DNA from: Halochromatium roseum
GTDB lineage: Bacteria > Pseudomonadota > Gammaproteobacteria > Chromatiales > Chromatiaceae
NCBI RefSeq assembly: GCF_016653315.1
Contig: NZ_NHSH01000057.1
Span: forward strand, 207,671 to 261,782
DNA length: 54,112 nt
Direction of reading: 5' to 3'
Shown here: one piece after another, positions 24,981 to 46,395 of the stretch
Position numbering within the stretch: the first letter of the stretch is position 1
How the letters are laid out: the number at the start of each line of letters is the position of its first letter
Notes under the pieces: generated by a model
What the model was told of the DNA's origin: nothing
The model's database searches: none
Seen by the model: only the letters and a program-made list of their open reading frames with translations
Position numbers and translations under genes: made by a program

Positions 24981-25025
24981 CTTCATTTTCCAGCACTTGT
25001 CGGCCGACAGCGCTCAGTGTTTACT
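24981..25025 (+). promoter_or_regulatory. Composite EPS-type promoter A
   Basis: CTTCAT (24981-24986), then 10 bp, TTGTCG (24997-25002), 17 bp, TTTACT (25020-25025). A second half-site CTTTAC lies exactly 10 bp upstream at 24971. The same layout recurs at 28464, 33589 and 46351. Transcription would start near 25032, about 55 nt before the ATG of the downstream gene. The weak -10 suggests dependence on an activator bound to the direct repeat. Confidence 0.65.
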
Positions 25026-25089
25026 TAGGTATAGCGGGATGATACCTTCCCAGACACGATCATCCGCACGAGGACGGAGGATAATGATC

Positions 25090-25644
25090 ATGAACTTTCA
25101 GGGGCTCTTCGAAATGGATGTAAAGCACCTAGGTGCGCATCGTGATAATCATCCTGATCATCAGTCGGAGTTGGCTGGTGGCGATTATACAAAGTCGGCT
25201 TACTATCAGGCGCTGATTGAGATATCAGTGTCGCGAATTCCCAGAAATACCCCAACCATCATCAAGCCTCATCCGTATTTAGATTTTGGATGTTCGCCAC
25301 TGGCATTGGCGACCTTACTTGGTGAGCCCGAACTCAATCTCTACACGATCAAGGAGCATCTCTTATTCTATCGGATTGAAACAGCGGGGTATAAGCAGAG
25401 ACTCGAATTTCATTTTCATCAATCACGCCTCTTCTACGTTAAGCGCAGTTTCTGCAAACTCAGCTTGAGTGATGCCAACGAGGTATTTTGCGCTTTGAGA
25501 GCCAAATATCTCGATGACAGATTGTTTGATCCCGAAAATGAAAAGATCATTGACCCACAAGGCAATGAGATCTTTGCTCGTGATAACGATGTACTGCAAC
25601 TCGAATACCTGCGCGCGCATCACTCTACCTTCGGCAGTTTGTGA
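25090..25644 (+). CDS. Unknown protein, paralogue of the 46538 gene
   Basis: A 184-residue protein. ATG 25090 is preferred because it lies 9 nt after GGAGG (25076-25080); ATG 25084 is an alternative. No signal peptide or membrane segment is seen. It is related to the protein at 46538-47047, with the same order of motifs: KPHPYLDF, a LLFYRIETAGYKQRLEFHF segment, LFYVKRSF, and KIIDPQGNEIF near the C-terminus. The two diverge in the first 50 residues, which here are His/Asp-rich (GAHRDNHPDHQ). Both genes carry the same type of promoter and flank the EPS island, so a role in EPS or its regulation is plausible. That is inference. Family not recognised. Confidence 0.75.
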   Translation: MNFQGLFEMDVKHLGAHRDNHPDHQSELAGGDYTKSAYYQALIEISVSRIPRNTPTIIKPHPYLDFGCSPLALATLLGEPELNLYTIKEHLLFYRIETAGYKQRLEFHFHQSRLFYVKRSFCKLSLSDANEVFCALRAKYLDDRLFDPENEKIIDPQGNEIFARDNDVLQLEYLRAHHSTFGSL

Positions 25645-25913
25645 AGCATACAAGCGACCACTTAACAATCAACATGCCGGCTTTTCCAGCCCCAGTGCAT
25701 GACCGCTCAGCCCACACCAAGATAGCCGCGCCGCTCGTCCCCCGCCATTCAGCGAGCGGCACATGCGGGGCAGCCCCCACTCTTGCAGCCTTGCCCGTTG
25801 ACAACACCACTGATGCAAGAGCCCGCGCGGCGCAAGGGGGCCCTTATTTACCATCGTCGAGTTCCAGGTCGACTATTACTGCTTTATTAGATAAGGCTCA
25901 TACGCAAATCGGC

Positions 25914-27209
25914 TTAGAGCCGCACATCCGCCCCATCCGCCGGCAGCACATATTTCAGATCGTAAAGCACATGCTCCGCCTTGCCGAAGGCCCGGAGCCC
26001 TTGTTGGCCTAGCGCCTTGAACTGATCATGCGCCACGGCAACGATCACGGCGTCATAAGCCCCCTGTGCGGGCTGCGCGGTCAGCTCGATTCCATACTCA
26101 TCTCGCGCCTCCTCCGCTGAGGCCCAGGGGTCGTGCACATCGACTTGGCACTGATAGTCTTTCAGCTCGTCGATGATGTCTACCACCCTGGTGTTGCGCA
26201 GGTCCGGGCAGTTTTCCTTGAAGGTGAGGCCGAGCACGAGCAGCCGGCTGTCGCCGATGGGGATGCGTCGACGCGTCATGGCCTTGATCAGTTGCCCGAC
26301 CACGTAGGCGCCCATGGTGTCGTTGAGGCGCCGCCCGGCAAGGATGATCTCGGGATGGTAGCCGATGGCCTGGGCCTTGTGCGTCAGGTAGTAGGGATCG
26401 ACGCCGATGCAGTGGCCGCCGACCAAGCCGGGGCGGAACGGGAGGAAGTTCCATTTGCTGCCGGCGGCTTCGAGCACGGCCTGGGTATCGATGCTGAGGC
26501 GGTTGAAGATGATCGCGAGTTCGTTGATCAGCGCGATGTTGAGATCCCGCTGAGTGTTTTCGATGACCTTGGCGGCTTCGGCCACCGCGATGCTCTCGGC
26601 CTTGTGGGTACCGGCGGTGATGATCGCACGGTAGAGGGCATCGACCTGCTCGGCAATGGCGGGTGTGGAACCGGCGGTGACTTTTTTGATGGTGGTTAGG
26701 CGGTGTGCCTTGTCACCGGGATTGATGCGCTCTGGGCTGTAGCCGCAGAAAAAGTCGCGGTTGTAGGTCAGGCCGGAATGTTGCTCGAGCACCGGTACGC
26801 AGTCATCCTCGGTGCAGCCGGGGTAGACGGTGGACTCGTAGATGACCAGGTCGCCGGGCTTGAGCGCCTGGCCGACGCTGGCGCTGGCCTTGAGCAGCGG
26901 GTTGAGGTCGGGCCGCTTGTAGGCGTCGATCGGCGTGGGCACGGTGACGATGAAGATTCTGCAGGCGCGCAGGGCCTCGGGGTCGCTGGTGTATTGCAGC
27001 TGTTGTGCTTCGGCGAGATCCTCTGGGGTGGTCTCGCGGGTGCTGTCGGTGCCGGCTTGCAGCTCGGCGACGCGGCCGGGTTTGATGTCGAAGCCGATGA
27101 CCGGGCGCTGTTTACCGAATTCGACCGCCAGCGGAAGGCCGACGTAGCCCAGGCCGATGATGGCGATAGGGCTGCTTGGGTCAGTGAGGTAGGCGTGGGT
27201 TGGGTCCAT
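25914..27209 (-). CDS. tviB: UDP-N-acetylhexosamine 6-dehydrogenase (TviB/WbpO type)
   Basis: A nucleotide-sugar dehydrogenase of the UDP-glucose/GDP-mannose dehydrogenase family, making a UDP-uronic-acid-type donor for polysaccharide. ATG 27209 is preferred over 27245, giving 431 residues. Seen: Rossmann motif [18 protein letters not shown], the [13 protein letters not shown] segment with [19 protein letters not shown] typical of the TviB branch, the nucleophilic Cys in [12 protein letters not shown], and the C-terminal [16 protein letters not shown]. TviB oxidises UDP-GlcNAc to UDP-GlcNAcA, and WbpO acts on UDP-GalNAc; sequence alone does not decide here. No TviC-like 4-epimerase is present in the window. 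Confidence 0.88.
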
Positions 27210-27326
27210 GGGGCGGTGCCCTAGGTAAGCCATAGGATAAGCCAAAGCTGCCGCGATGCCCCGGTTGATCTTTTTGATCTTTTTGGGGACATTTGTTGAT
27301 GCTTGGACACCTTGGCTGGATTGTGT

Positions 27327-27360
27327 TGGCGAGTGAGTTCATCAATGAACTTGCTCGCCA
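27327..27360. terminator. 15-bp stem hairpin, terminator-like
   Basis: TGGCGAGTGAGTTCA (27327-27341) pairs with TGAACTTGCTCGCCA (27346-27360), including two G-U pairs, around the loop TCAA. TTTAA follows on the plus strand. It lies in the 356-bp gap 27210-27565 between the tviB start and the 3' end of the next minus-strand gene. The remainder of that gap has no convincing gene. Confidence 0.5.
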
Positions 27361-27490
27361 TTTAACTGTTCACGCTCGCTGATGGCAAGGGCTTTTGCCC
27401 CTAAAGCATACTCAACCGGCCGCGATTTTAACGCGCGCTCAAAGCGCGCCAGGGTCCGCGGGCACGGTTGCAACAGGCGGCAGATCATGA

Positions 27491-27515
27491 CCTGCGGCGC
27501 ATCCCGCGCCGCAGG
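27491..27515 (-). terminator. GC-rich hairpin after the 27566-28342 gene
   Basis: CCTGCGGCGC and GCGCCGCAGG form a perfect 10-bp stem around ATCCC, about 50 bp beyond the stop of the minus-strand gene ending at 27566. There is no clear U-run, so the terminator function is probable rather than certain. Confidence 0.5.
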
Positions 27516-27565
27516 CGTTGGATGGCTTCATGCAGCTCGCATCGGTCGCTTCATGCGCGATCGCG

Positions 27566-28342
27566 CTAGCGTGCTGCCGGACTGATGATCGAGCCGCCTC
27601 CACCACCACCCTCGCCGACGCTACTGGCCAGCGTGCTCACCAGCTCAGCGGCCTCTCCAGGGCCAGTGTCGCCCCCTAACCCAGCCTCATCGCCCCCAGC
27701 GGCAGGCATGACACCGGCCAGATCGGCTTGGATGTTGGCCAGCTCTTCGGCCTCAGCGACGCGCTCGTTGAATTCGGGTACGGCGGCGCTGACGGCGTCG
27801 TTGGTCTGGGCGAACTGGACCGCCTGCTCGGCGATCTCGGTCCCTGTGAGCGTGACACCTTGGCTCTCGGCCGAGCGCATCGCTAGCGTGACCACGCCCA
27901 CTACATCCGCTAGGGCCTGCCCAACGCCATTAGGATCGGTGTCAGCAACCCCGGGATAGGTCAGTACGCGGGTCGCTGACCGAGCGACGTCGACCGCCGC
28001 CTGCGGATGATCGATCGCTAGCACTTGCGCGCGCGCGACCACGGCACGCGCGGCAACGGCGGCATCGGCTGGCGCATTCACTGCCAGCACATCGAGCGCT
28101 CCTTGCAGCGCATTGATCTGATCCGGTCCTGGGTTCTCACCGAGGGCCTCGGCGATGACCTCCTCGAGGTTCCCATCAACAATGGCCTGGCTCAGGATCT
28201 CAGGCGAGATGACGACCTGAGCGCTGACAGATTCAGCGCTTGTGGCCGCTGTTTCGAGCCCGGGCTGGGCTTGGGCGCTGATGTGAACGCCAAAGGACAT
28301 CAGCATGCTCAGAAGCGGAACAGCGATGCGGAGGTTCTTCAT
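27566..28342 (-). CDS. Secreted Ala-rich helical protein with poly-Gly linker and short tail
   Basis: A 258-residue protein with a clear signal peptide (MKNLRIAVPLLSMLMSFG, cleavage near AQA). The mature part is acidic and rich in Ala and Val and looks helical, with repeated segments such as ADAAVAARAVVARAQVLA. It contains no cysteine. The C-terminus is unusual: a Gly/Asp/Glu stretch (GGDEAGLGGDTGPGEA), a short helix, then a run of six glycines followed by SIISPAAR. A Gly linker with a short defined tail suggests a recognition or anchoring tag, but it is not a PEP-CTERM signal, since it lacks a transmembrane helix and Arg cluster. Divergently transcribed from the vpsM-like gene across a region full of CTTCAT sites. 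No family recognised. Confidence 0.72.
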   Translation of the reverse strand: MKNLRIAVPLLSMLMSFGVHISAQAQPGLETAATSAESVSAQVVISPEILSQAIVDGNLEEVIAEALGENPGPDQINALQGALDVLAVNAPADAAVAARAVVARAQVLAIDHPQAAVDVARSATRVLTYPGVADTDPNGVGQALADVVGVVTLAMRSAESQGVTLTGTEIAEQAVQFAQTNDAVSAAVPEFNERVAEAEELANIQADLAGVMPAAGGDEAGLGGDTGPGEAAELVSTLASSVGEGGGGGGSIISPAAR

Positions 28343-28398
28343 TAGGGCACCTTCGTTTTAGCGGTAACCGAGATTGTCAGAGGAAGCCCTATTATCTA

Positions 28399-28451
28399 AT
28401 GAAGCCTAGGCCGATAAAAATGAAGAACGGTGAAGATGAAGAACGATGAAG
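28399..28451 (-). promoter_or_regulatory. Cluster of inverted CTTCAT sites in the divergent EPS intergenic region
   Basis: On the plus strand ATGAAG occurs at 28399, 28420, 28436 and 28446, with GTGAAG at 28430. The pairs 28420/28430 and 28436/28446 each have a 10-bp period. These are the reverse complement of the CTTCAT box of the neighbouring promoter at 28464, so the same regulator could act on the divergent gene (28342, minus) or form a larger assembly. No strong minus-strand -35/-10 pair was found. Confidence 0.5.
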
Positions 28452-28463
28452 ATGTTTACAAAA

Positions 28464-28508
28464 CTTCATCATTGAGTGCTTGTCGATCGCCAGCGCTCCG
28501 TGTTTATT
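28464..28508 (+). promoter_or_regulatory. Composite EPS-type promoter B
   Basis: CTTCAT (28464-28469), 10 bp, TTGTCG (28480-28485), 17 bp, TTTATT (28503-28508). The upstream half-site GTTTAC lies at 28454, exactly 10 bp before CTTCAT. Similarity to promoter A extends over about 80-100 bp, including the spacer (CAGCGCTC-GTG) and sequence after the -10. It drives the vpsM-N-O-P-like operon; the expected leader is about 80 nt. Confidence 0.7.
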
Positions 28509-28596
28509 TACTTGGCGCCTGATGAAGCCTTCTCGGACCGAGACGATTGACCGTTTCTCCAGAAGCAGATCCAACCTTGGTTAAAGGGGCACTGTT

Positions 28597-29868
28597 TTGC
28601 GAACACGTATTAGCAGCCTAGCGACTGCCTTCGCCTGCCTACCGCTCATTGTGCCCCTCGCTAGGGCGCAAACTGATCCCGCCGAGATTGCCTATGATCT
28701 CAGCGTCATGCAGCGCCCACTGAATCATCAAGACCCTGGATTTCTCCGCTTGGGCGGATGGACGCTGACGCCACGCCTCGACTTGGGCCTGCGCTACGAC
28801 GACAACATCTACGCAACGCCAAACGATGAGATCGATGATCTCATTACCGCCATCGTCCCCGTCGCAAGCCTTGCTTCGAATTGGAATCGGCACCAGGTCG
28901 AATTTGAGGCTGGCGGCAACCTCGGTCTTTATGAGACCAACAGCGACGAGGATTATCACAATTACTACTTCCAGAACAGCACTGTTCTGGATGTCGTACA
29001 GGGCACCCAGCTCTCCACCGACCTGCTCTACCGCCATGCCTCCACGCCGCGGTCTTCATCGTCCAACATCGGTGCCGCCAAGGAGCCGCTCACCTATGAT
29101 CAACGCGCCGCCAGCCTCGGCCTCAAGCGCGACATCAGCATCTTCACGCTGAGTCTCAGCGGCGGTATCGAGCGTCTAACCTACGCCAAGAGCCAAGCCA
29201 TCGGCGGCGGCACCCTCAACAATTCAGACCGAGACCGAACTCAGACCAATCTCGGCATGCGCCTAGGCTATGAGCCCATTCCCACGGCCACGGCCTATCT
29301 CGGAATCGGTTACCAAGACGTCGACTACGACGACTCCACGCGCTTTGGCGGCCCCAACCGCAACAACAGCGGGTTCAGTATCGATCTGGGTGCAAGCAAG
29401 ACCATCAGTGATCTCTGGGTCATTGACCTCGCCGTTGGCTATCAACCACGCAATTTTGCTGACAGCAGCCTTGAAGACATCAGCGGCCTCAATGCGCTGA
29501 CCCTGCGCGGCGATGTCCTCTGGAATCCAACCGCGCTCACCTCCGTCATGGGCACGCTCTCGCGCCAAACCTATGAAACCACCGAGGCCGGCGCCTCAGC
29601 CATCGTCAGCACCTTTGGCGCCCTCAATGTCGAACACCAGCTCTTGCAGTCGCTCGTCATCACAGCCGGACTCGACTACAACGACAGCGAATACGACGGC
29701 TCCTCCCGCAACGATCGCGATTTCGGGCTCAGCACCGGACTCAATTACACACTCACCCGCTTCGCCAGTATTCGGGCTGAGTACAGCTATCGCGAGCGCG
29801 ATAGCACCGACAACAGTGCTGATTACGACAAAAATCTAGTGCAGATCGCCTTACGTCTGAGTTTTTAA
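28597..29868 (+). CDS. Outer-membrane beta-barrel of EPS export (VpsM-like, BBP2 family)
   Basis: A 423-residue protein starting at TTG 28597 after AAAGGGG. Residues 1-24 are a signal peptide (CLPLIVPLARAQ). The remainder alternates polar and hydrophobic residues with many Tyr, Asn and Asp turns (LGLRYDDNIYATPNDE; YLGIGYQDVDYDDS), as in a barrel of 14-18 strands. It ends in LVQIALRLSF, a terminal aromatic residue typical of barrel insertion. It resembles putative beta-barrel porin family 2, found in EPS loci. The next gene is a short OPX protein lacking its own outer-membrane helix, so this barrel is the probable outer-membrane channel. Confidence 0.85.
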   Translation: MRTRISSLATAFACLPLIVPLARAQTDPAEIAYDLSVMQRPLNHQDPGFLRLGGWTLTPRLDLGLRYDDNIYATPNDEIDDLITAIVPVASLASNWNRHQVEFEAGGNLGLYETNSDEDYHNYYFQNSTVLDVVQGTQLSTDLLYRHASTPRSSSSNIGAAKEPLTYDQRAASLGLKRDISIFTLSLSGGIERLTYAKSQAIGGGTLNNSDRDRTQTNLGMRLGYEPIPTATAYLGIGYQDVDYDDSTRFGGPNRNNSGFSIDLGASKTISDLWVIDLAVGYQPRNFADSSLEDISGLNALTLRGDVLWNPTALTSVMGTLSRQTYETTEAGASAIVSTFGALNVEHQLLQSLVITAGLDYNDSEYDGSSRNDRDFGLSTGLNYTLTRFASIRAEYSYRERDSTDNSADYDKNLVQIALRLSF

Positions 29869-29915
29869 ACCTCTAAATCTTAAAATCTTTAAACTTCCAA
29901 GCCTCGACAAACGAT

Positions 29916-30482
29916 ATGGACAGAGTGCGACACGCCATCACCCAACCACCGGCTCGGTTCAGCCTGCGGCCGATACGACTCCTGCTCGGCCTATTGCTGC
30001 TGATCACGGCTCAATCCCTCATCGCGCAGGACGCCGATTATCAACTGGGACCCGGCGATAAGCTACGCGTCACCGTCTTTGGCGAGCCCTATCTTTCCGG
30101 TGAATACAACGTCAGCGCCAATGGCTCGGTCGCCATGCCCTTGATCGAGCCCGTTGCCGTTGGTGGTGGTACCGTCTTCGAGGCCCAACAACTCATCGAG
30201 CAAGCACTGCGCGCTGGCTTCTTCGGCAATCCAAGCGTCGCCGTCGAGGTGCTCGACTATCGCCCTTTCTTCATCATCGGCGAGGTCAAAAAGCCGGGCA
30301 GTTATCCCTACATGGCCGATATGACCGTCTTACACGCGGTCGCCATCGCCGGTGGATTCACGCCCCGCGCGGCCAAGAATAAGATCATGGTTCAGCGCGG
30401 CGACAAAGAGATCGGCCAGGTCCGCAACACAACGCCGATCAAGCCTGATGACGTCATCACCGTTAAAGAGCGATTCTTTTAA
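29916..30482 (+). CDS. Short polysaccharide export (OPX) protein, VpsN/GumB-like
   Basis: A 188-residue periplasmic export protein with an N-terminal hydrophobic segment (LLLGLLLLITAQSLIAQ). It lacks a lipobox cysteine at the cleavage site. The Poly_export domain begins at DYQLGPGDKLRVTVFGEP, followed by one SLBB domain (FFIIGEVKKPGSYPY; HAVAIAGGFTP). It ends directly after ITVKERFF, without the C-terminal amphipathic helix by which Wza spans the outer membrane. Such short OPX proteins work with a separate beta-barrel, here the gene upstream. 47 bp separate them, and its stop directly abuts the next start. Confidence 0.9.
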   Translation: MDRVRHAITQPPARFSLRPIRLLLGLLLLITAQSLIAQDADYQLGPGDKLRVTVFGEPYLSGEYNVSANGSVAMPLIEPVAVGGGTVFEAQQLIEQALRAGFFGNPSVAVEVLDYRPFFIIGEVKKPGSYPYMADMTVLHAVAIAGGFTPRAAKNKIMVQRGDKEIGQVRNTTPIKPDDVITVKERFF

Positions 30483-32792
30483 TTGAAACCTGAAAACGTA
30501 TGGACGTCGCCCGCAGGTCCGCCATTACCGACCGTGCCACAACGGCCTTCAACCGCAATGGACACTGCCCCTGCCAACCCGGCAGGCGCCGAACTCATCG
30601 ACATCCGCGAGTTACTGAGTGTGCTCTGGCGGCGGCGAGTCGTCATCCTCGGCACGGCCATGTTCCTCTGTCTGCTGGCGTTCATGGTGCTGGTGCAGCT
30701 CACCCCGCGCTATACCGCCTCGGCCCTGCTCAGCCTGCAGACGCGCAGCGAATCCGTGATCGATATCCAAGCCGTCATCTCCGGCTTGTCGGCCGATGCC
30801 AGCGCCATCCGCACCGAACTCGACATCATCTCCTCACGTCGACTCGTCAGTCAGCTCGTCGAGCGGCTCAACCTGATCAACAATCCGGAGTTCAACGCCG
30901 CGCTGCGCGATGAGCGCTCGATCTTACAGTTCCTCGACCCGCGCACCTACCTCTCCTCAGACTGGCTGATCGCATTGGGGCTGAAAAGACCCGCCGAGCC
31001 CCTGAGCGAAGAAGAGCGCCTGGCGCGCGAGCGCGCGAGCGTGGTCAATGCGGTGAGCAGCGCGCTGACAGTCACAAACCCCAAGCTGTCTTATTCGATC
31101 AGCATCGACTTCGAGACCGAAGACCCAAAGCTGTCCGCACGTCTGGCCAATACCCTGGCCGACATCTATCTAGACGACCAACTCGAGGCCAAATACGAGG
31201 GCACTGAGCGCGCCACCAACTGGCTCAGCACCCGCATTGCCGAGCTGCGCAAGCGCGTGCAAGACGCCGAACAAGCCGTGCAGGCCTACCGGGAACAATT
31301 CTCCATCATCGAATCCGGCCAAGGCACCATCAGCGAGCAGCAGCTCGCTCAGATCAACATGGACCTGGTCAACGCCAAGACCCAGCTCGCCGAGGCACAG
31401 GCACGCTATCGCCAAGTGCTGGCTCGTGGCCAAACCAGCGCCGTTGCCCTCGCCGAGGTCTTGGATTCCTCGATGATCCAAAACCTCGGCCAGCAAGAGG
31501 CGCAAGTCCGCCGCAAGCTCGCCGAGATCTCCGAGCGCTACGGCCCGCGCCATCCCGACAGCATCGACGTCCGCTCCGAGCTGCGCGACATCCGTAGCAA
31601 GCTCGATGAAGAGGTCAAGAAGATCACCCAAAGCCTCGAGAACGAGGTCCAGGTCGCACAGGCCCGGGTCGCCGCCCTCAGCGAAAACCTCGAACTCCTC
31701 AAAGACGAAAGCGCTGACCTGCAAAAGGCCAGCATCCAACTGCGCGAGCTCGAGCGCGAAGCCGAAACCAGCCGCGTGCTGCTCGAGACCTTCCTCGCCC
31801 GCTTCAAAGAGACCAGCAATCAGGACCAGATGCAGCAGGCCGACGCCCGCATCATCTCCAAGGCCCAAGTACCCACAGGCCCCAGCTTTCCCAACAAGAA
31901 ACTGATCCTGGCCGTCGCCCTCGTGTTATCGCTGATGATCGGCCTGGGCCTCGCCTTCCTGCTCGAGGCTCTAGATAACGGCTATCGCACCCCAGAGCAG
32001 CTCGAAAAGGCACTGCACATCAAAGGGCTAGGCATGGTGCCAAAACTCAGCCCACTCAAGCTCAAAGGCCAAGAGCCACACCAGTACGTGCAGAGGAAGC
32101 CCACCTCCTCCTATGCCGAGGCCTTGCGTTCGGTGTACACCTCCATCGCCTATGCGTGCCCGGCCGGCGAGAAACCAAAGCGCCTGCTAGTCACCTCCGC
32201 GCTGCCCAATGAAGGCAAGAGCACCTTCTGCCTCAGCTTTGGGCGCCTGCTCGCCCTGGCTGGCAATAACCGCGTGCTGCTCATCGAGGCCGATCTACGC
32301 CGCGGTAAGATCGGTAAGACCCTGTTCAATAGCGCCGCCGCCGACAACACCGATGTCCTCGCCGCTTATCTGACCGGCGAGGTCACGGATTGGCGCCAAT
32401 GCCTGCAGACCGACCCCGCCAGTGGTCTCCACGCCCTGACCTCGAGCGGCAACATCGAGCATCCACAGACCCTACTGCAGTCCGACAACATGCGGCGCCT
32501 GCTCGACGAAGCTGGACAAGACTACGACCTCATCCTCGTCGATACCCCACCGTTGCTGGCCGTCTCAGACGCGCTCCTGCTCAGCCACCAGGTCGACGCC
32601 GCCGTCTTCGTCGTCAAATGGGAATCCACCCCCCGCGATGCCGTGAAGCATGCCTTGGCCCTGCTCCGCAAGGCCCATGCCCCGGAGGCCGGCGCCCTGC
32701 TCACCCAGGTCAACTTGAAAAAACACGCTTACTATGGCTACGGCGACTACGCCTCCTACTACAACCGCTATGGTAACTACTACCGCAACTAA
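30483..32792 (+). CDS. Polysaccharide co-polymerase with BY-kinase domain (Wzc/VpsO-like)
   Basis: About 769 residues from TTG 30483, immediately after the OPX stop; ATG 30558 is the main alternative. Order of parts: a Wzz domain with first membrane helix (VVILGTAMFLCLLAFMVLV), a large periplasmic coiled-coil region (about 230-460), the second helix (LILAVALVLSLMIGLGLAFLL, about 475-500), and a cytoplasmic tyrosine kinase. Kinase motifs: Walker A SALPNEGKS, Walker A' LLIEADLRRGK, Walker B LILVDTPP. The C-terminal Tyr cluster (HAYYGYGDYASYYNRYGNYY) is the autophosphorylation tail. It controls chain length and export of EPS. The last 23 bp overlap the next gene. Confidence 0.95.
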   Translation: MKPENVWTSPAGPPLPTVPQRPSTAMDTAPANPAGAELIDIRELLSVLWRRRVVILGTAMFLCLLAFMVLVQLTPRYTASALLSLQTRSESVIDIQAVISGLSADASAIRTELDIISSRRLVSQLVERLNLINNPEFNAALRDERSILQFLDPRTYLSSDWLIALGLKRPAEPLSEEERLARERASVVNAVSSALTVTNPKLSYSISIDFETEDPKLSARLANTLADIYLDDQLEAKYEGTERATNWLSTRIAELRKRVQDAEQAVQAYREQFSIIESGQGTISEQQLAQINMDLVNAKTQLAEAQARYRQVLARGQTSAVALAEVLDSSMIQNLGQQEAQVRRKLAEISERYGPRHPDSIDVRSELRDIRSKLDEEVKKITQSLENEVQVAQARVAALSENLELLKDESADLQKASIQLRELEREAETSRVLLETFLARFKETSNQDQMQQADARIISKAQVPTGPSFPNKKLILAVALVLSLMIGLGLAFLLEALDNGYRTPEQLEKALHIKGLGMVPKLSPLKLKGQEPHQYVQRKPTSSYAEALRSVYTSIAYACPAGEKPKRLLVTSALPNEGKSTFCLSFGRLLALAGNNRVLLIEADLRRGKIGKTLFNSAAADNTDVLAAYLTGEVTDWRQCLQTDPASGLHALTSSGNIEHPQTLLQSDNMRRLLDEAGQDYDLILVDTPPLLAVSDALLLSHQVDAAVFVVKWESTPRDAVKHALALLRKAHAPEAGALLTQVNLKKHAYYGYGDYASYYNRYGNYYRN

Positions 32793-33510
32793 GCACTGGA
32801 CGCCGGGCGACTCCGTGCGCGCAACCTTGGTCGCAGCCATCGCCCTCGCCTTATTCTTACTTGCCGGCAACCAACTACTCAGCCAGCTCAGCCGCATCCC
32901 CGCCAACAGCTATTTCGAGCAGCAGCAGGCACGCTTCACCGATAAAGAACAAGCGCAGGCTGTCCTCCGCGACAGTGCTGAGCGTTATGCACGCATCCCG
33001 CCGCAACGCCGTGGCGCACAAGAATGGCGCCGCCTGGCCAGCACAGCACTCCTGCTGCGCCAGTACAGCCATGACCCACAGACGCGTGAACAGCAACACG
33101 CCGCCATCCACAGCGCCCTCACCGCCAGCCTGGCTCGCGCCCCGGTCCAGCCGCTGGCCTGGGCCTACCTGGCCAACCTGCGCCTGCCACCGGCCGGCGA
33201 CTGCGCACAGGCCATGGCCGCCCTGCAGCAGTCCTACCGGGTCGCGCCGATCGAGCCCAACCTCCTCACCTACCGCCTCGAGCTTGCCACCCACTGCCCC
33301 AGGCACTGGAACAGGGTCTTACTCAAACGGCTGCGCACCGACGTGCAATCGGCTTACCTGGGGCCAGCGAAACACGGAGTCCCGCGCGCGATCATCACCT
33401 GGGTCAGCAATCGGCATCGCCGAGCCACGCTGATCAGACAGTTGCTCAGAGACCAGCCCCAGGCCCTGGCCCAATTCGAGCAACAACTGACGCGCGCCAC
33501 ACAACACTAA
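32770..33510 (+). CDS. VpsP-like membrane-anchored EPS protein
   Basis: About 246 residues from ATG 32770, overlapping the Wzc-like gene in another frame; an earlier ATG at 32734 lies deeper in the overlap. One membrane helix (LVAAIALALFLLAGNQLL) is followed by a periplasmic domain of helical pairs resembling TPR repeats (PLAWAYLANLRLPPAGD; AMAALQQSYRVAPIEPNLL). Position after an OM barrel, OPX and BY-kinase matches VpsP in the Vibrio vps-II order. The function of VpsP proteins is not established. Confidence 0.72.
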   Translation: MVTTTATKHWTPGDSVRATLVAAIALALFLLAGNQLLSQLSRIPANSYFEQQQARFTDKEQAQAVLRDSAERYARIPPQRRGAQEWRRLASTALLLRQYSHDPQTREQQHAAIHSALTASLARAPVQPLAWAYLANLRLPPAGDCAQAMAALQQSYRVAPIEPNLLTYRLELATHCPRHWNRVLLKRLRTDVQSAYLGPAKHGVPRAIITWVSNRHRRATLIRQLLRDQPQALAQFEQQLTRATQH

Positions 33511-33588
33511 TGATCTTTCTTATTGATCGAGCAGCCCATCCTTCATCTTTCTTCATGGACCGCTATTCTTCATCCTTGATTTACATGT

Positions 33589-37229: not shown

Positions 37230-38396
37230 TTAAGTTGTGACTATCGTATTCGGCACAGGTGTTCCATCATCAGTCAAAAGAAAGATTGTCATTAGCGCAA
37301 ATGCATCGCCGAAATTGATCAGTTGCGGAATAAAAAAACCTGAAAATAGCCACGCGCACCAGCATCCAATCCTCAACAGGTCTCGACGATTCCATTCGTG
37401 CCGGACCCGCACCACACATTGCAATAAACGCGCAAGTATAATGACAAAGAAGAGCGCGAATAATAATACACCATTCTCAAGCATATAATCCAAGATACCA
37501 TTATGCGTCGGGAAATAAGCGTTGCGATTCCGAAAACCATAGCCAAACAGCGGACGTTGATTGATCTGGGGGTAAAAGTCAGAATACATATCCAAACGCC
37601 CACTGAATCCACTACCAATACCACGTGAAGGATCATCAGTTTGCAGAAGAGTCTGCAGGAAATAATCAAATCCTATGGCTAATATAAAAACAACAGCAGA
37701 GAAACTAATCATCAACAGTAGAAGCTTAGTCATTGACAATCTCAGATTAACCGCCAACGCATCCGAGATAATGACTAGAGTTATCGCTACGATCGCATAA
37801 CGAGAAGAGACAATGGCAGAGAAAAAAAACGCGATTGCATACATAACCCAGCGTAGATTACTAGATGAACGAGCAGCAAAATAGGTAGCAGCTAGGGCAA
37901 AAGCTCCAGTAAAACCTGGGTGAAGACCGCCAATCCAACGCCCATCAGGAAAACCATGAACCATAACAAGGACAAGCAGTATGGCAATAAGAGCACTAGA
38001 TAATGCAAAGTAATGTTGACAACTAAAAACTCTATTAGCATGCATCGCGACCAGAACGAAAACTAAAAAAATTATAGAGTACCCCGAAGCTTCAAGGTTC
38101 AACTGAATTAGATTTATAATAAAAATAGCGAGCGCAAGTACAATAATTAGAAAATTCGCAATACTGCCTTTAATGACACTGATAGTCTGGCTGAACATTC
38201 TAACCAAGATCAACAATGCAGTAGCCCCAAACAATGCCGCAACGGCTAGCATCATCGACCGGGATCGTTCAATCTCGACCAACACACCATCAACGTATAG
38301 TCGCGGCGGTGCAGTCAATGCTTCATAAAATAGCGCTAACACCCAAAAAAATATGACTACTGCTATAACCTGCCTAAGAGAAATTCTCACGTCCAT
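37230..38396 (-). CDS. O-antigen ligase/Wzy-type EPS polymerase
   Basis: A 388-residue polytopic membrane protein with about ten hydrophobic helices. A large extracytoplasmic loop before the last helices contains GFSGRLDMYSDFYPQINQRP followed by FGYGFRNRNAYFPTHNGILD, typical of the Wzy/WaaL (Wzy_C) superfamily with its His in THNGILDY. In an EPS locus with Wzc and OPX the likely role is periplasmic polymerisation of lipid-linked repeat units. No flippase (Wzx) gene is seen in this window. Codon and base use is more AT-rich than the flanks. Confidence 0.85.
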   Translation of the reverse strand: MDVRISLRQVIAVVIFFWVLALFYEALTAPPRLYVDGVLVEIERSRSMMLAVAALFGATALLILVRMFSQTISVIKGSIANFLIIVLALAIFIINLIQLNLEASGYSIIFLVFVLVAMHANRVFSCQHYFALSSALIAILLVLVMVHGFPDGRWIGGLHPGFTGAFALAATYFAARSSSNLRWVMYAIAFFFSAIVSSRYAIVAITLVIISDALAVNLRLSMTKLLLLMISFSAVVFILAIGFDYFLQTLLQTDDPSRGIGSGFSGRLDMYSDFYPQINQRPLFGYGFRNRNAYFPTHNGILDYMLENGVLLFALFFVIILARLLQCVVRVRHEWNRRDLLRIGCWCAWLFSGFFIPQLINFGDAFALMTIFLLTDDGTPVPNTIVTT

Positions 38397-38412
38397 TACT
38401 CCAAAATGAGTT

Positions 38413-39537
38413 TTAGCTGCAAGATTTCAATACCCCATCAACAAATTGACACACATCCCCCTGCGGCGCACTTGCAATCGCCTCCTTGCACATCCGTCGC
38501 CATAATCCATCATCCTCGCTCAAAAGCCTCATGAAATACGCCATGCCGCATGGATTATCAGGCTCAACGACAAAACCGTTGACCCCGCTACGCACCAGCA
38601 GATCTCGTGCGCCGCAATTATCGGAGAGGATGACTGGTAGCCCCATCGCCTGCGCCTCGATCACGACAATGCCAAATTGCTCCTCAACACTTGGTAACAG
38701 CAAGGCGAGGGTTTTCCCAAGCGTCTGGCTGATCGCCTCATCCTGTAACCAGCCGCTAAAGACGAGATAATCAGTGATGCCCAAGGTATCAGCCTGTTGC
38801 CTCAGAGCAGCTTCGCCTGGTCCTGAACCGCAGAGATACAATGGGCGTGGCTTATCAACCGTCTTCCAATATATGGCGTAGGCGGACAAGAGCATAGACA
38901 GGTTTTTCTTCGGCACGAAACGCGCAATCACAGTGAAATGCCGTTCTTGGAATACTGGTCCATCTGGGGCAGGCGGCACACCAGCTTGACGACGGATACG
39001 TTCTAGGCTAACTGTGTTGCATTCACCATGAATTGTCTCAGGCTTCAAGCCGAGAAATTGCCAATACTGCTTAGAGCGCACGCCATTAGAGAGCGCCCCG
39101 TGATAGGGCCAAAGATAAAAAGCTTTACCGATCTCGCGCCAAACCTGCCTAGGCTTATCATCGAATTTCGAGTCGTTTATCGTGATAACTCGACCGCCGC
39201 GTAAATGTAGAACGATCGCCAGCAGGAAAATAGCGGAATTCTGATAATGACAAAGGAAAAAACAGGTCTCATGCGGTGGCGGCAGATGAGCGAGGATTCG
39301 GAGCAATCGCAAAATCGGCGATTTGGGAACCTTGCCTGTGAAGACGGTACGCTTCTCAAAGGTATCGGATATCCTTGACGCCCAAGCATACGTATCACTT
39401 TTCGGCGTCAGCTCAATCCCAATAACCTTAAACCGTTTTGCAAGATGTCGTTGCACAGCCTCAATCCGATCCATGTGATAGGGGCCAAAGTTATCCCAGA
39501 GAAAAACAATTGTGGTTTTATCCCGTCCTATTTGCAT
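38413..39537 (-). CDS. Glycosyltransferase (GT-B, family 4-like)
   Basis: About 374 residues from ATG 39537; the frame extends to 39582 but starts there with a weak codon. N-terminal VFLWDNFGPYHMDRIEAV is characteristic of a sub-group of EPS transferases. The C-terminal donor domain shows HFTVIARFVPKKNLSMLLSA, LYLCGSGPGE, and the E-x7-E motif in PSVEEQFGIVVIEAQAMGLP. Located 17 bp upstream of the polymerase gene in the same operon. Acceptor and donor are not predictable. Confidence 0.87.
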   Translation of the reverse strand: MQIGRDKTTIVFLWDNFGPYHMDRIEAVQRHLAKRFKVIGIELTPKSDTYAWASRISDTFEKRTVFTGKVPKSPILRLLRILAHLPPPHETCFFLCHYQNSAIFLLAIVLHLRGGRVITINDSKFDDKPRQVWREIGKAFYLWPYHGALSNGVRSKQYWQFLGLKPETIHGECNTVSLERIRRQAGVPPAPDGPVFQERHFTVIARFVPKKNLSMLLSAYAIYWKTVDKPRPLYLCGSGPGEAALRQQADTLGITDYLVFSGWLQDEAISQTLGKTLALLLPSVEEQFGIVVIEAQAMGLPVILSDNCGARDLLVRSGVNGFVVEPDNPCGMAYFMRLLSEDDGLWRRMCKEAIASAPQGDVCQFVDGVLKSCS

Positions 39538-39640
39538 TATTAATCTACCACTTGTTCTCTCAGAGACGACCTTTTGCTGCAAACATTACCGTAACTTAAG
39601 TATCACAATCACTTCCTTTGAATCTATCACTCCAATACGT

Positions 39641-40813
39641 TTAATCATCTATTAATCGCCGGTACTCTTGACTTAGTTTTTCAACGATACTTGGCCATGT
39701 ATATCGCCTATGTGAAGCCTGCCGACCTGAAACACCCATCCGCTTTCGCCGTTCTGAATCATTAAGCAGTTCTAGTATTGCACTTGCAACATCATCAGCA
39801 TCACAGTCTGTTACCAAGCCAGCGCCCTCCTCCGCTACCTCTCGATGAATGTTGACGTTACGTGAAATGACCACTGGTAATTCACAGGCCATCGCTTCGA
39901 CAACCGTCATGCCAAAGCTTTCTGTGTAAGATGGCAACACGAAGACATCGGAATCCACATAGGCTTGGATCACGTCAGCACCGGTCATAAAGTCAACAAA
40001 GATCACAGCGGCTTCGAGTTCCCGTTCCCGCACCCAAACACGCACCCGCTCGCCATAGTCGTCGTTAACTGGACCAACAATGGCTAAGCGGGCATCTGGA
40101 TGTAACTGGTGTACTCGATCGAAGGCTGTGATCAAGATATCAAGCCCCTTTACGTAATGCAGGCGACCGAGGAACAGCAATAATGGGGCTTCACCAAGCG
40201 AGTGTGCCGCTCGAAAATCACCACGGGTTGGTAGATGTTCAAAAGGTGCCCAATCCAGGCCATTGGGCACCACGAAGGACGGCGATCGCAGGTTCAAGAA
40301 ACCGGCGAGGCGGCGCTCGTCCTCTGCGGTGTAATGAATGGCGCTGGCGCCGTTCAGATTGGGGCGGTCGAACCAGCGTTCATAGCGACGTTTTAGCCAG
40401 AGGGATTTCCCGCTGCGGGCATACAGATAAGGGTCTAGCGCCCCATGCGGCATGACGATGTAGGGGATACCGAGTTTTCTAGCAAGCCATGCGCAGTAAG
40501 TAGGGGGAAAGCGGTACAGACCATGGATATGGATAAGATCAAAGCGCGGCAGCGTTTTCCTTGCCCAGCGACGCAGAGTGTGCGAAACGACCAATGGCTG
40601 AAAATCGACCGAGAAATACCAAGTGGTGACACCTTCTTCCTCTATCGGGACATTGGGCTGTACATCCAGGACACCTCTGGGATGATCAGCGTTTGTGGTG
40701 CAAATCGTCACCTTAAGGCCCGCTCGCGCCTGCTGTTGCGCCAGCGCCTTTAAGACTGTGGTGGGTCCTCCGTAACGAGGGGCCAGGGTGGTAATGACAT
40801 GCAGGATGTTCAT
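39641..40813 (-). CDS. Glycosyltransferase family 4
   Basis: A 390-residue GT-B enzyme. It starts MNILHVITTLAPRYGGPTTV, a classic family-4 N-terminus with the GG loop. Further motifs: HIHGLYRFPPTYCAWLARK, MPHGALDPYL, LLFLGRLHYVKGLDILI, and the E-x7-E signature in PSYTESFGMTVVEAMACELP. It retains the high GC content of the host, unlike the gene at 41785. Probably adds one sugar of the EPS repeat unit. Confidence 0.9.
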   Translation of the reverse strand: MNILHVITTLAPRYGGPTTVLKALAQQQARAGLKVTICTTNADHPRGVLDVQPNVPIEEEGVTTWYFSVDFQPLVVSHTLRRWARKTLPRFDLIHIHGLYRFPPTYCAWLARKLGIPYIVMPHGALDPYLYARSGKSLWLKRRYERWFDRPNLNGASAIHYTAEDERRLAGFLNLRSPSFVVPNGLDWAPFEHLPTRGDFRAAHSLGEAPLLLFLGRLHYVKGLDILITAFDRVHQLHPDARLAIVGPVNDDYGERVRVWVRERELEAAVIFVDFMTGADVIQAYVDSDVFVLPSYTESFGMTVVEAMACELPVVISRNVNIHREVAEEGAGLVTDCDADDVASAILELLNDSERRKRMGVSGRQASHRRYTWPSIVEKLSQEYRRLIDD

Positions 40814-40860
40814 TCAAAGCCCTTGGGGGGAAATGAAGCGAGTAGGTATGACATCAACCT

Positions 40861-41562
40861 TTAACGCTGAAACAGCCAATCGGCTTGAATGCGCTGCCCC
40901 TTTTCAAGTTGATCATTGAAATGCCCTGCTTCGTCAAATCCGGCCTCAGTGAGCAACTGTTCGACTTCGCCCCTGAGCGCTTGACCATGGTAGAGTTCCA
41001 AATCTGAGGCCTCGACATAGATCGTATCGATCTCGGGCAACAGCGCGGTTGCGCCCTTGAGCACTTCCAGTTCAAAGCCCTGAACGTCGATCTTCAGCAA
41101 ACTCGGCCGCGCGATCGGCGGGCTAATGCAGGTATCCAGGCGTTGGATGGGAACTCGCAGTGTCCCTGATTCCTCCATCCCGAAGATGGCCTTTTGGCGG
41201 TCACCCAGCGCCAGCAGCGAGGAAGAGTCGGTGCGTGTGGCGATATGCATGTCGCCTTCACCTGAATCAGCACCAAGGGCGCAGTCGTGAATCTCAGCCT
41301 GACCACGCATGACGCGTTCAAGCTTGGCCCTGGCCTCAGGTAGGGGCTCGAAACAGATCCGACGAGCATCAGGCCAGCGCAACCGGGCGTAGGTGGCGAA
41401 CTGGCCCTTGTTGGCGCCGACATCGATGACGGTCGCGTAATGCTCACCACCCAGGGCACTGTCGTGCTCCAGCGTCGCGGCAACGCCTTGCATCAAGGCT
41501 GGCCAGCAGGCGGGACACTGCAGAAGCTTGAGATATTTGTGCATACGTGGAGACATCAGCAT
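40861..41562 (-). CDS. FkbM family methyltransferase
   Basis: A 233-residue SAM-dependent methyltransferase. Motif I is VIDVGANKGQFATYARL, and the FkbM hallmark LLKIDVQGFELEVLKGA lies in the C-terminal half. FkbM enzymes O-methylate sugars or other hydroxyl groups. In this position, between glycosyltransferases, it probably methylates an EPS sugar. The intact gene here contrasts with the deletion-fused methyltransferase at 36511. Confidence 0.9.
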   Translation of the reverse strand: MLMSPRMHKYLKLLQCPACWPALMQGVAATLEHDSALGGEHYATVIDVGANKGQFATYARLRWPDARRICFEPLPEARAKLERVMRGQAEIHDCALGADSGEGDMHIATRTDSSSLLALGDRQKAIFGMEESGTLRVPIQRLDTCISPPIARPSLLKIDVQGFELEVLKGATALLPEIDTIYVEASDLELYHGQALRGEVEQLLTEAGFDEAGHFNDQLEKGQRIQADWLFQR

Positions 41563-41784
41563 TTCCTTTTAGGAGGCAGCAGATCATTACCCTCGAGCCG
41601 TATATCACAGTTGGCCCGGTTACGGCCGCCAGCATATCTTAATTGGGCTATACCCGGCTGATACAAAAAATTCACATTGCGCATGTCTATTATTAATTCT
41701 TTAGAAAATTATTATTAAAAATGTTTAGAGCAGCAACTTTACAAAGCAGCACCAGATATTATCAGACAGCCTTTGCTTTCTGGA

Positions 41785-43032
41785 CTAGCTCGATAATATA
41801 TCTATTAACTTGGCGCTCTCAGATTCAAAATTAACTTTTGACGCTAAAATTGACGAATTGCACTTCATCTTTAAAATACTTTCAGGGGTACAGGTGACTA
41901 TTGCAGACCTAAGATCTTCGACAGTGAATGCCTTTGTCACCAGGCCAATATCATACTTATTAATTATTTCGCTCATATCTTCCGAGGGCCCTGATATAAC
42001 AGCCAAGCGAGCCTGAACATACTCAAAGAATTTATTCGGTAATGCATCCTCTAGGCTGGAGTGCAATGGAGGGAAAAACGCCAAGCCTACATCATAACTA
42101 TTTGTTTCAGTAATAAGGCGTTCATACGCTATTGGTTCATGGAAGTGTATTTTTTTAGATGCTATTTTTCTAAGAGACTCAAGATATTCAACAGAAATGT
42201 CTGTTAAATACAAATGTAAGGATATGTTTTCTGGTGATAAATTCACTGCCTCAATCAACATATCTATACTTCTTTGACGGTTGCCGATTCCGTGGTATAC
42301 CAGCTTTATATCTTCTGAATTCACCGGCTGCGGGGCCAAGTCTTGCCGGTATTCAACAGCGCTTAAAACAACGCTTGAATTTATATTAAAAATATTTCTC
42401 AACTTTTTTGAGTGGCCATTACTAACACAAATGACTTCATCATATTTTGGTAGAAACTCTAAGTAGGTCTTTTTGGTAAGCAAATGATCTAGCGCCTTGA
42501 CCGCAATGGCTATAATTTTAGTCAAGCCTCGCTCTGAACTAGACCCTATCAAATCGTTGCGCCAATAGAAGTCTCTTAGATCAAGTACAAATTTTGCGTG
42601 ACTGATAGATTTTATCTTCAGCCCTAAAAGGCTGAGACTGATATCCTCAACTAGAATAAGATTTACATCACTTAATGCCTCAATCTTATATGGGCTTAGA
42701 ATTTTACTTTGAGTAGTTAAAAACCAAGACAACCAAAAGCCACCAAATAAAGCAGCCATTAAAGATAAAGGGAGTGTAGTAGCAAACCATAATGTAGTTG
42801 TGATTTTTTTTATAAAGCTACCTGCTTGCAAATCGTTGATGCTACGGCTTTGAAGCGGCCAATATAGTAAATGCTTATCAGTCGGCACATGTGGCGAAGA
42901 CACAAGCAGTTTATACCCCATATCTTCCAATACCTTAATATTCCTCGAAATTCGTTTTCTTGATTCAAAATTAGCATTAGTCAAGACAATAGCGATCGGC
43001 TTTTTTATTGTTTTGCCAGTCATCTTTTCCAT
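41785..43032 (-). CDS. Glycosyltransferase (GT4-like), AT-rich, probably acquired
   Basis: A 415-residue protein with a glycosyltransferase-like arrangement: AIVLTNANFESRKRISRNIK at the N-terminus, an internal hydrophobic stretch (LWFATTLPLSLMAALFGGFW) that may contact the membrane, DEVICVSNGHSKKLR, IKLVYHGIGNRQRSIDMLIE, and PNKFFEYVQARLAVISGP. The gene is rich in AAA, ATT and TTA codons and clearly more AT-rich than the genes around it, indicating recent transfer. A 220-bp AT-rich gap separates it from the FkbM gene. First gene of the minus-strand EPS group. Confidence 0.78.
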   Translation of the reverse strand: MEKMTGKTIKKPIAIVLTNANFESRKRISRNIKVLEDMGYKLLVSSPHVPTDKHLLYWPLQSRSINDLQAGSFIKKITTTLWFATTLPLSLMAALFGGFWLSWFLTTQSKILSPYKIEALSDVNLILVEDISLSLLGLKIKSISHAKFVLDLRDFYWRNDLIGSSSERGLTKIIAIAVKALDHLLTKKTYLEFLPKYDEVICVSNGHSKKLRNIFNINSSVVLSAVEYRQDLAPQPVNSEDIKLVYHGIGNRQRSIDMLIEAVNLSPENISLHLYLTDISVEYLESLRKIASKKIHFHEPIAYERLITETNSYDVGLAFFPPLHSSLEDALPNKFFEYVQARLAVISGPSEDMSEIINKYDIGLVTKAFTVEDLRSAIVTCTPESILKMKCNSSILASKVNFESESAKLIDILSS

Positions 43033-44752: not shown

Positions 44753-44817
44753 GGCGCTCGACCAGACCAGCACCCCGTTGATAAGCCCGCAAGGTCGCAT
44801 GCGTCGCCCGCGCAATC
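44753..44817 (-). pseudogene. DUF433 gene fragment
   Basis: 65 bp nearly identical to 50174-50238 inside the intact DUF433 gene (shared block CACCCCGTTGATAAGCCCGC). It encodes the N-terminal ARATHATLRAYQRGA region only. It lies directly at the 3' end of the AbiEii-like gene. Confidence 0.75.
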
Positions 44818-45568
44818 ATGAGGCGTCGGACTGATCGCCCTGGGTTTCTCGACGCTTCTCGATCAGGTCGCGCGCCAGCGCGATTTCCCGGGCCTGCAAC
44901 AGTTCCTCAAAATATGCGTGGATGGAGGTCAGGGTGATGCCCACATCGACGGGGTCCAGTCCTTCGTCATCGGTATCCAACGGCAGCAGCCCGAGCAGTT
45001 TGTGCTCAACCACGGTCGGCACCTCGGGTCCGGCGTCGGCAGCCTGGGCGGCGGCAACGATGTCAGTCAAGGTCTTACCCTGATGCTGGCAGAACCACAT
45101 CAGGTCGAAGTAATCGCGAGCGCGTGAACGCTTGAGTAGCAGGGCGCTCATCATGGCGAACAGGGTCGGCAAATCTGCCAACCCGAAACGCCAGCCGGGC
45201 TGCGAACGCACACCTATGGCATAGCGTTTTCCCCGGGGATCGGCAAAACACTGCACTTTGACGCCATCAAGGACGTAATCCTGCACATGGGCCAGCAGGT
45301 CAAGGCCATTGATCTTGGCGGCCGAGATCATGGACGCCGGCGTCACCAAGGTGGCGCCTCTCGACTGCATGGCGCTGAACAGCGCGTGTTTATCGAGCGA
45401 CGCTTCAAAGGTGATGAGATCGACATCGAGACTTCGACGGTGACCGGCCTGCAGCGCCATCGCGGTGCCGCCCACCAGACAAAAGCCAGACAGCGCTTCT
45501 TCATTGGCGAGCTTGTCGATCACCGCGATCGTCGCCTGGGGCAACGACTCAGGTTTGAGCGCTGTCAT
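44816..45568 (-). CDS. AbiEii/AbiGii-type nucleotidyltransferase toxin
   Basis: A 250-residue protein of the AbiEii nucleotidyltransferase family. Seen: FCLVGGTAMALQAGHR followed by SLDVDLITF, giving the GG motif and the metal-binding DxD. RARDYFDLMWFCQHQGKTL is the typical downstream segment. In AbiE systems the toxin stops growth through tRNA nucleotidylation, and the module gives phage resistance. Overlaps the upstream HTH gene by four bases (ATGA), the expected antitoxin-toxin order. Confidence 0.82.
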   Translation of the reverse strand: MTALKPESLPQATIAVIDKLANEEALSGFCLVGGTAMALQAGHRRSLDVDLITFEASLDKHALFSAMQSRGATLVTPASMISAAKINGLDLLAHVQDYVLDGVKVQCFADPRGKRYAIGVRSQPGWRFGLADLPTLFAMMSALLLKRSRARDYFDLMWFCQHQGKTLTDIVAAAQAADAGPEVPTVVEHKLLGLLPLDTDDEGLDPVDVGITLTSIHAYFEELLQAREIALARDLIEKRRETQGDQSDAS

Positions 45569-46023
45569 GCCGTGTGGCGCTGGCTAAGCTCTTCTGACAG
45601 CGCAATATCGATGCTGCGCAGCATGCGGGCGAGGATGCGCTCGAGAATGGGGCGCTCAGCCGCTGGCACCAGACCCAGCGCCGTTTCGACGCGCCCCTTG
45701 ACCCTGTCCAGGCCTTGATCGATGCAGAGTTGCACCAGGTCTGCAAAGTCTGCTCGCCGCAGGACGGCAAGGATCAGGGCATTGTCGGTCATGGCAGGAT
45801 CGGACCAGTCATAGGGTTTGCTAAAACCGCTCGACTGCCGAACGCCATAGTGCGCGGCCAACAGGCGCAGGGCTGTTTCGGGCATGCGCCGAAAATCACC
45901 CGAGGTTTCAGGCAGTAGCCATTTATCCAGTGCGCGCCGCGACACGCCGAGGCCCTCGGCCATCCGCTGGCGTGTCTGGCCGCTCTGTTTCATGGCGGTG
46001 CGGAGCATCTCTTGTTGACGCAT
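45565..46023 (-). CDS. HTH partner (putative antitoxin) of the AbiEii-like toxin
   Basis: A 152-residue protein. Residues about 1-40 look like a Cro/XRE-like helix-turn-helix (QTRQRMAEGLGVSRRALDKW). The rest is helical and contains LPETSGDFRRMPETALRLLA and a C-terminal RILARMLRSIDIALSEEL. It is not the classical AbiEi sequence, but its position, overlap and HTH make it the likely autoregulating antitoxin. Confidence 0.65.
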   Translation of the reverse strand: MRQQEMLRTAMKQSGQTRQRMAEGLGVSRRALDKWLLPETSGDFRRMPETALRLLAAHYGVRQSSGFSKPYDWSDPAMTDNALILAVLRRADFADLVQLCIDQGLDRVKGRVETALGLVPAAERPILERILARMLRSIDIALSEELSQRHTA

Positions 46024-46115
46024 GCGTAAAGACTATCCCCAGTGGGGATGCACTTGCAACGCACGCGGTGTTGAAACCAGCGCCCTGCCGTACGGCAGTG
46101 CCTGCTGCTTCAGTG

Positions 46116-46170
46116 CCTGCTGCGAGGTTGCTTTCCCTGCACTGGATTCCGGCTTCCCGGCTGGAATGAC
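46116..46170. repeat. Dispersed repeat Q, copy 2
   Basis: Near-identical to 43851-43905, with a few single-base differences. It contains the same ATTCCGG-type palindrome. Confidence 0.75.
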
Positions 46171-46226
46171 TAACGTGAAGTGACTGGAATGACTAACGTG
46201 AAGTGACCGGGAAGCCGGACGATGGT

Positions 46227-46281
46227 GGCCGGAATACCCTCCTTCTCTCGTCGTCCCAGCCGGGAAGCCGGGACCTAGGCC
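46227..46281. repeat. Dispersed repeat R, copy 2
   Basis: Near-identical to 44500-44553. It is joined directly to the coiled-coil gene fragment at 46283, so the repeat marks a rearrangement junction. Confidence 0.75.
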
Positions 46282-46282
46282 G

Positions 46283-46340
46283 ATTTGTTGAAGTCTTCCT
46301 GGGCCAGGGCCATGGTGGTGTCTCCGGATGGCTCGCGGGC
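46283..46340 (-). pseudogene. Duplicated 5' end of the coiled-coil gene
   Basis: 58 bp matching 44301-44357, including the RBS, the start codon and the first 11 codons (MALAQEDLQQI), with one base deleted. The rest of the gene is absent. Confidence 0.75.
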
Positions 46341-46350
46341 CTTCATAAGT

Positions 46351-46395
46351 CTTCATCTTTCTCGCCTTGTCGATGTTGCAGACAGAGTGTTTACT
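46351..46395 (+). promoter_or_regulatory. Composite EPS-type promoter C
   Basis: CTTCAT (46351-46356), 10 bp, TTGTCG (46367-46372), 17 bp, TTTACT (46390-46395). A second CTTCAT lies at 46341, exactly 10 bp upstream. The spacer keeps CAG and GAGTG of promoters A and B. The downstream gene starts at 46538, giving a leader of about 135 nt. Confidence 0.65.

Follow-up and report, generated by a model that had tools for sequence, protein, structure and literature searches.

Introduction

ArcA sites consist of half-sites in direct repeat, spaced by roughly one turn of the helix (11 bp from centre to centre), and some carry further half-sites (PMC3798270), while the CpxR box reads GTAAA-N5-GTAAA (PMC12802237). 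In the Roc system of Pseudomonas a hybrid kinase, a DNA-binding regulator and an EAL regulator have cup fimbriae among their targets (PMC12051241), and VpsT, part of vps control in Vibrio, recognises a degenerate palindrome, the T-box (PMC8754643). Here we report four composite promoters, sites A to D, in a 54,112-nt stretch of contig C57 (the window) of the 5.17-Mb genome of Halochromatium roseum (G000), in which the operator TTYAY-N4-CTTCAT stands at a fixed distance from promoter words. Judging from sequence comparison across the genus, this operator is probably read by one OmpR/PhoB-family response regulator, most likely the product of C57:283110-283820.

Against the cited descriptions, the sites resemble those of ArcA and the OmpR family in their two direct-repeat half-sites, with further half-sites at some sites, and in the winged-helix Trans_reg_C regulator associated with them, but differ in their half-site words (TTYAY and CTTCAT), in a period of 10 bp rather than the 11 bp of ArcA, in being limited to the genus and in their targets, which are polysaccharide genes and genes of uncharacterised function. 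Read in reverse, the operator has the GTAAA half of the CpxR box at A, B and C and an equal 10-bp period, but the other half is ATGAA and the D operator has no GTAAA half. The gene set of hybrid kinase, DNA-binding response regulator and receiver-EAL response regulator recalls Roc, although the DNA-binding domain of RocA regulators is of the GerE/NarL type and that of the candidate here is an OmpR-type Trans_reg_C domain. As with VpsT, a regulator linked to cyclic di-GMP (c-di-GMP) would stand in front of polysaccharide genes; however, it belongs to a different family, and the direct repeat at A-D rules out a palindromic VpsT-type site. An RNA element was also considered and set aside, without an Rfam search. 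We file the locus as a probable OmpR/PhoB-family regulon, a lineage-specific kind of member, and not as a Cpx, Roc or Vps system.

Results

The four sites share one layout:

24972-25025, + strand: site A; TTTAC at 24972, CTTCAT at 24981, N10, TTGTCG at 24997, N17, TTTACT at 25020 (operator 24972-24986)
28455-28508, + strand: site B; TTTAC at 28455, CTTCAT at 28464, TTGTCG at 28480, TTTATT at 28503
33580-33633, + strand: site C; TTTAC at 33580, CTTCAT at 33589, TTGATT at 33605, AATAAT at 33628
46342-46395, + strand: site D; TTCAT at 46342, CTTCAT at 46351, TTGTCG at 46367, TTTACT at 46390

All spacings given by the initial annotation (the 10-bp period, N10 and N17) agree with a letter-by-letter reading. 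In what follows, the full pattern is operator-N10-TTG and the longer composite also includes the -10 word; chance levels come from 100 dinucleotide shuffles for the window and from reversed patterns for genomes. The full pattern has four matches in the window (shuffles: mean 0.00, largest 0) and likewise four genome-wide, all at A-D (reversed control 0). All four genome-wide matches are these upstream sites; the equal frequency in coding DNA that the initial annotation had named as a refutation is not seen. Across a sample of 66 further genomes from the family, which included G003 and G004 as the only other genus members (without G001, G002, G005, G006 and G007), it gave four single matches in four genomes, with no reversed-control match among the results listed.

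The operator alone is found seven times in the window (shuffles: mean 0.06, largest 1), each time as a head-to-tail direct repeat with a 10-bp period, within the 10-11 bp expected of the OmpR/PhoB family. The three additional copies are:

28436-28450 and 28420-28434, - strand: two operators beside site B, facing the divergent gene 27566-28342
33542-33556, + strand: TTCAT-N4-CTTCAT, preceding the operator of site C by 38 bp

One of the two minus-strand copies is kept upstream of the divergent-gene homologue in the sister genome G002. Genome-wide there are 10 operators (reversed control 0), eight of them within C57:232642-283021 and the other two at C49:107403, overlapping the start of an open frame, and C82:44756. 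The promoter words themselves are poor sigma-70 hexamers, TTGTCG and TTTACT each matching four of six consensus bases; in a consensus scan of 24800-36500, C was the one site of A-C to be listed, and promoters in that segment were no more numerous than in shuffles (2 vs 3.3). Weak -35 and -10 words fit the need for an activator, yet promoter words alone are weak evidence.

The sites are unequal in their independence. A and B are homologous over an 84-bp alignment of 72.6% identity that begins exactly at TTTAC, and over 57 bases A matches B at 43 positions and D at 33; C matches A, B and D at 22-25 of 57, with little likeness outside the shared words and with the operator and TTG in register. 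Either A or B was probably copied from the other, and C is the best independent case within the window. Given the homology of A and B and the paralogous genes behind A and D, these copies are not independent inventions. The initial annotation had argued from four separate loci to one regulator; the fit to one regulator is supported, whereas the independence of the loci is not.

Eight genus genomes were compared (G000-G007, of which G005 is 87% and G007 89% complete). In G002 (L130), a response-regulator gene at 5064-5774 lies between two genes at 4267-4818 and 6026-6580, all on the minus strand, that belong to the same uncharacterised family as the genes behind sites A and D. It was located through the neighbourhood of these genes, independently of the motif, and its product combines Response_reg and Trans_reg_C domains, the OmpR type. 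Among 19 genomes, first-type relatives of this regulator were found in G001:C53 (82% identity), G000:C57 (66%), G002:C55 (64%) and G007:C2 (62%), and a second type, at 56-57%, in G000:C42, G001:C6, G002:C8, G003, G005 and G006. A tree groups G000:C57, G002:C55, G002:C31 and G001:C53 at 100/98 and the second type at 83/99; the G007 regulator joined the first type, at 99/99, only in an earlier tree that contained one wrong outgroup row. A search with the regulator alignment for named relatives returned 80 loci at 33-40% identity, none of the first type.

The regulator gene of H. roseum, C57:283110-283820 (Response_reg 92.8 bits, Trans_reg_C 62 bits), lies 21 kb to the right of the window, so that the regulator is indeed, as first annotated, not in the window, though near it. 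It is followed by a receiver-EAL gene and then by a hybrid kinase (PAS, GAF, HATPase_c, receiver). By eye the EAL proteins keep the usual motifs, hence phosphodiesterase activity is predicted. To the left of the regulator (L147:2535-7987) the cassette looks partly doubled, with another receiver-EAL gene and a kinase in which no receiver domain was matched.

The operator recurs at the regulator genes themselves. The 123-bp gap upstream of the G000:C57 regulator contains TTTACACTTCTTCAT, the operator lying 103 bp before the start; at 10 operators per 5.17 Mb, a gap of that length would contain one by chance with a probability of about 2.4e-4. An operator match also lies upstream of the G001:C53 regulator, TTCATACTTCTTCAT, and a one-letter variant upstream of that of G002:C55, TTTACACTTCTTTAT, so that three of five first-type regulator genes carry it directly upstream (one as the variant); in G007, TTCATCATTCTTCAT lies between the regulator and the receiver-EAL gene. 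In OmpR/PhoB-family regulons a site at the regulator's own promoter is frequent but not required. The divergent regions of the C42 type in G000 and G003 hold no operator. An OmpR/PhoB-family regulator on a 10-bp-period direct repeat, as proposed by the initial annotation, is the best fit, given a Response_reg/Trans_reg_C regulator found without the motif in G002 and the operator upstream of its relative in H. roseum.

First-type regulator, uncharacterised family and promoter occur together in G000, G001, G002 and G007 (the promoter of G001 with two mismatches), and none of the three was found in G003-G006. This co-occurrence, four genomes against four, is suggestive; the species are related, so the cases are non-independent. 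No second-type regulator is listed in G007 (next best 40%), and it is the sole type in G003, G005 and G006; the second type is therefore neither needed nor enough. Beyond the genus, G024, G037 and G039 have polysaccharide operons with porin orthologues at 43-46% identity, and in these genomes neither a first-type regulator (at E 1e-45) nor the full pattern was found; a looser scan of 20-kb stretches gave two relaxed matches in G037 and none in the other two.

The uncharacterised family is present in five of 112 genomes, G050 being the sole member outside the genus, and has nine genus members (two in G000, one in G001, two in G002 and four in G007). No named relatives of the protein were found in a search of genome contigs, and a class-wide search of 369 sampled genomes returned only H. 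roseum itself, from a sample without the sister species that carry the family. The promoter of the G002 orthologue of gene A is identical at 54 of 57 bases; that of the G007 relative of D is identical at 39 of 57, the proteins being 53% identical, and the best off-register 57-mer between the 450-bp upstream stretches of this pair reaches 28 of 57. Searched for in the same 112 genomes, the longer composite gave 32 matches, six exact (three in G000, at A, B and D; one in G002; two in G007), none with one mismatch and 26 with two, against 10 in all for the reversed control. We treat the two-mismatch matches as mostly chance, except G001:C53:7335-7388, which precedes a gene of the family. Exact composites lie upstream of five of the nine genus members, and arrays of the TTCAT word lie upstream of the G001 gene and the second G002 gene.

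Operator matches elsewhere in the genus number eight in G001, three in G002, two in G003, three in G005, six in G007 and none in G004 and G006 (reversed controls: three in G002, two in G005, 0 in the others). Those of the other genus genomes were examined at 23 loci, several of which are inside open frames; G001:C30:44501 and G005:C266 were rejected as chance because they fall at the start of a coding frame, and the G007 matches at the C2 and C17 contig ends are one site. At G007:C5:63665 (L164) an open frame encoding PAS and HisKA domains begins 111 bp after the operator TTTACAATTCTTCAT and is perhaps a further target. The family member at G007:C10 (L132:10457-13373), which has no operator upstream, is flanked by genes for a Bac_transf sugar transferase and for a Glycos_transf_4 protein, and that at G001:C53 (L133:4628-6628) is followed on the same strand by glycosyltransferase and GDP-mannose dehydratase genes.

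The genes next to the sites in the window are as follows:

25084-25644, + strand: uncharacterised gene A, downstream of site A; no Pfam match, member of the genus-restricted family
25914-27245, - strand: UDP-sugar dehydrogenase gene, behind the divergent gene on the same strand
27566-28342, - strand: divergent gene, 258 aa; no Pfam or NCBIfam match
28597-29868, + strand: beta-barrel outer membrane protein BBP2_2 (porin), first gene after B, VpsM-like in the initial annotation
29916-30482, + strand: Poly_export/SLBB polysaccharide export protein, B operon
30483-32792, + strand: Wzz/GNVR/AAA_31 chain-length and tyrosine-kinase protein, B operon
32734-33510, + strand: 258-aa protein, last of the B row; no Pfam or NCBIfam match
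33710-35176, + strand: WcaJ-type undecaprenyl-phosphate sugar phosphotransferase, after C (TIGR03023, 462.5 bits, cut-off 410.75)
35195-36472, + strand: glycosyltransferase Glycos_transf_1, next after the WcaJ-type gene
37230-43032, - strand: polysaccharide gene group (Wzy_C, glycosyltransferase-type, FkbM methyltransferase), without operator match
46538-47047, + strand: paralogue of the gene A product, downstream of site D; no Pfam or NCBIfam match

The UDP-sugar dehydrogenase gene might be co-transcribed with the divergent gene, whose homologues in G001 and G002 sit immediately upstream of the porin gene and share its orientation. The term exopolysaccharide regulon, as used at first, holds for B and C, which precede recognisable polysaccharide genes, but not for A and D; as the minus-strand group lacks the operator, the predicted regulon spans only part of the polysaccharide genes. 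Divergent from site D (44816-46023, - strand) are genes for a nucleotidyltransferase of the AbiEii type and for a small protein that matches HTH_8 weakly. Elsewhere in the window, 1956-8348 (+ strand) encodes a UvrA-like protein of 2130 aa, about twice the usual length, that matches ABC, UvrA_inter and UvrA DNA-binding domains; 8393-13054 (- strand) is a 1553-aa open frame without Pfam match; and a YhgA-like transposase gene is flanked by two proteins with the same DUF7033 N-terminus (50459-51475 and 52819-53979, - strand).

Discussion

The sites, their rarity and conservation, the gene neighbourhood and the co-occurrence are computed results, and the circuit that we infer from them is probably a lineage-specific, autoregulated OmpR-family regulon. 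Two regulator subunits, arranged head to tail, would occupy half-sites spaced by one turn of the helix, some 48 and 39 bases ahead of the -10 word and just upstream of the poor -35, and the bound dimer would recruit RNA polymerase to the weak promoter TTG-N20-TTTACT, the presumed direction of effect thus being activation. A signal sensed via the hybrid kinase, which we presume to be the partner of the regulator, would set transcription and c-di-GMP level together, with the receiver-EAL protein as the predicted c-di-GMP phosphodiesterase of the circuit. Its predicted targets are the two paralogous uncharacterised genes, the polysaccharide export operon, the divergent gene, the sugar-transferase gene and the regulator gene itself.

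Several observations weigh against this reading. The number of sites overstates their independence, given the homology of A and B and the paralogue context of A and D. No operator was found directly upstream of the G002:C31 and G007:C2 regulators (two of five) or upstream of two of the four G007 family members, and the composite of G001 precedes its family gene only with two mismatches. In G002 the three operator matches are equalled by three in the reversed control. The TTG 10 bp after CTTCAT was not found at the regulator promoters, which therefore have the operator in common with A-D and not the whole promoter. The tree assigns the G007 regulator to neither of the two groups, and the C42-type paralogue carries almost the same recognition-helix stretch (RSIDVH[IV]GNIRRKL) and could consequently read the same site.

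That last point opens the strongest alternative, in our view an unlikely one, namely that the operator is read by another OmpR-family regulator, either the C42 paralogue (C42:129012-129695) or the CpxR-like protein at C40:43636-44307. The near-identical recognition stretch speaks for C42, but the C42 type is present in G003, G005 and G006, which are without promoter and family, has no listed match over 41% in G007, which has both, and lacks the operator in its own divergent promoter regions in G000 and G003. For C40, the opposite strand of the operator, ATGAAG-N4-GTAAA, resembles the CpxR box in that one half reads GTAAA at sites A-C, and C40 is the best match in the genome to the CpxR model NF008199, at 186.6 bits; however, none of the seven matches reaches the cut-off of 341 bits (the C57 regulator scores 122), CpxR was rejected as the regulator, and both halves of D are TTCAT, not TTTAC.

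We give little credence to the idea that A, B and D owe their likeness mainly to descent, the promoter having been copied with or beside the uncharacterised genes, so that its spacing would be uninformative on a regulator. The A/B alignment, the paralogues behind A and D and the A-D and A-B identities all fit such copying, yet C keeps the operator and TTG in register despite its low overall identity to the others, operators also precede regulator genes and, on the opposite strand, the divergent gene, and the block is kept in G007 and G000 despite diverged flanks. Least credible is a small dispersed CTTCAT repeat without regulatory role, for although family members in G001 and G002 are preceded by TTCAT arrays, eight of the 10 matches in H. 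roseum stand at gene starts in one 50-kb stretch and the operator position is locked to -35- and -10-like words.

Conclusions

With one first-type OmpR/PhoB-family regulator as the preferred reader of the operator, what were look-alike promoters become a testable circuit in which regulator gene, operator, targets and c-di-GMP enzyme come together in one cassette, and the uncharacterised protein family gains its first functional lead. We raise only tentatively the further possibility that this nearly genus-restricted family is the primary target of the phosphorelay and that polysaccharide export was added later by promoter copying, B from A. If A and B are one copied promoter, they would let one read how a polysaccharide operon came to be captured by a regulator already in place, and if the family is the primary target, its proteins would be a new matrix or biofilm factor.

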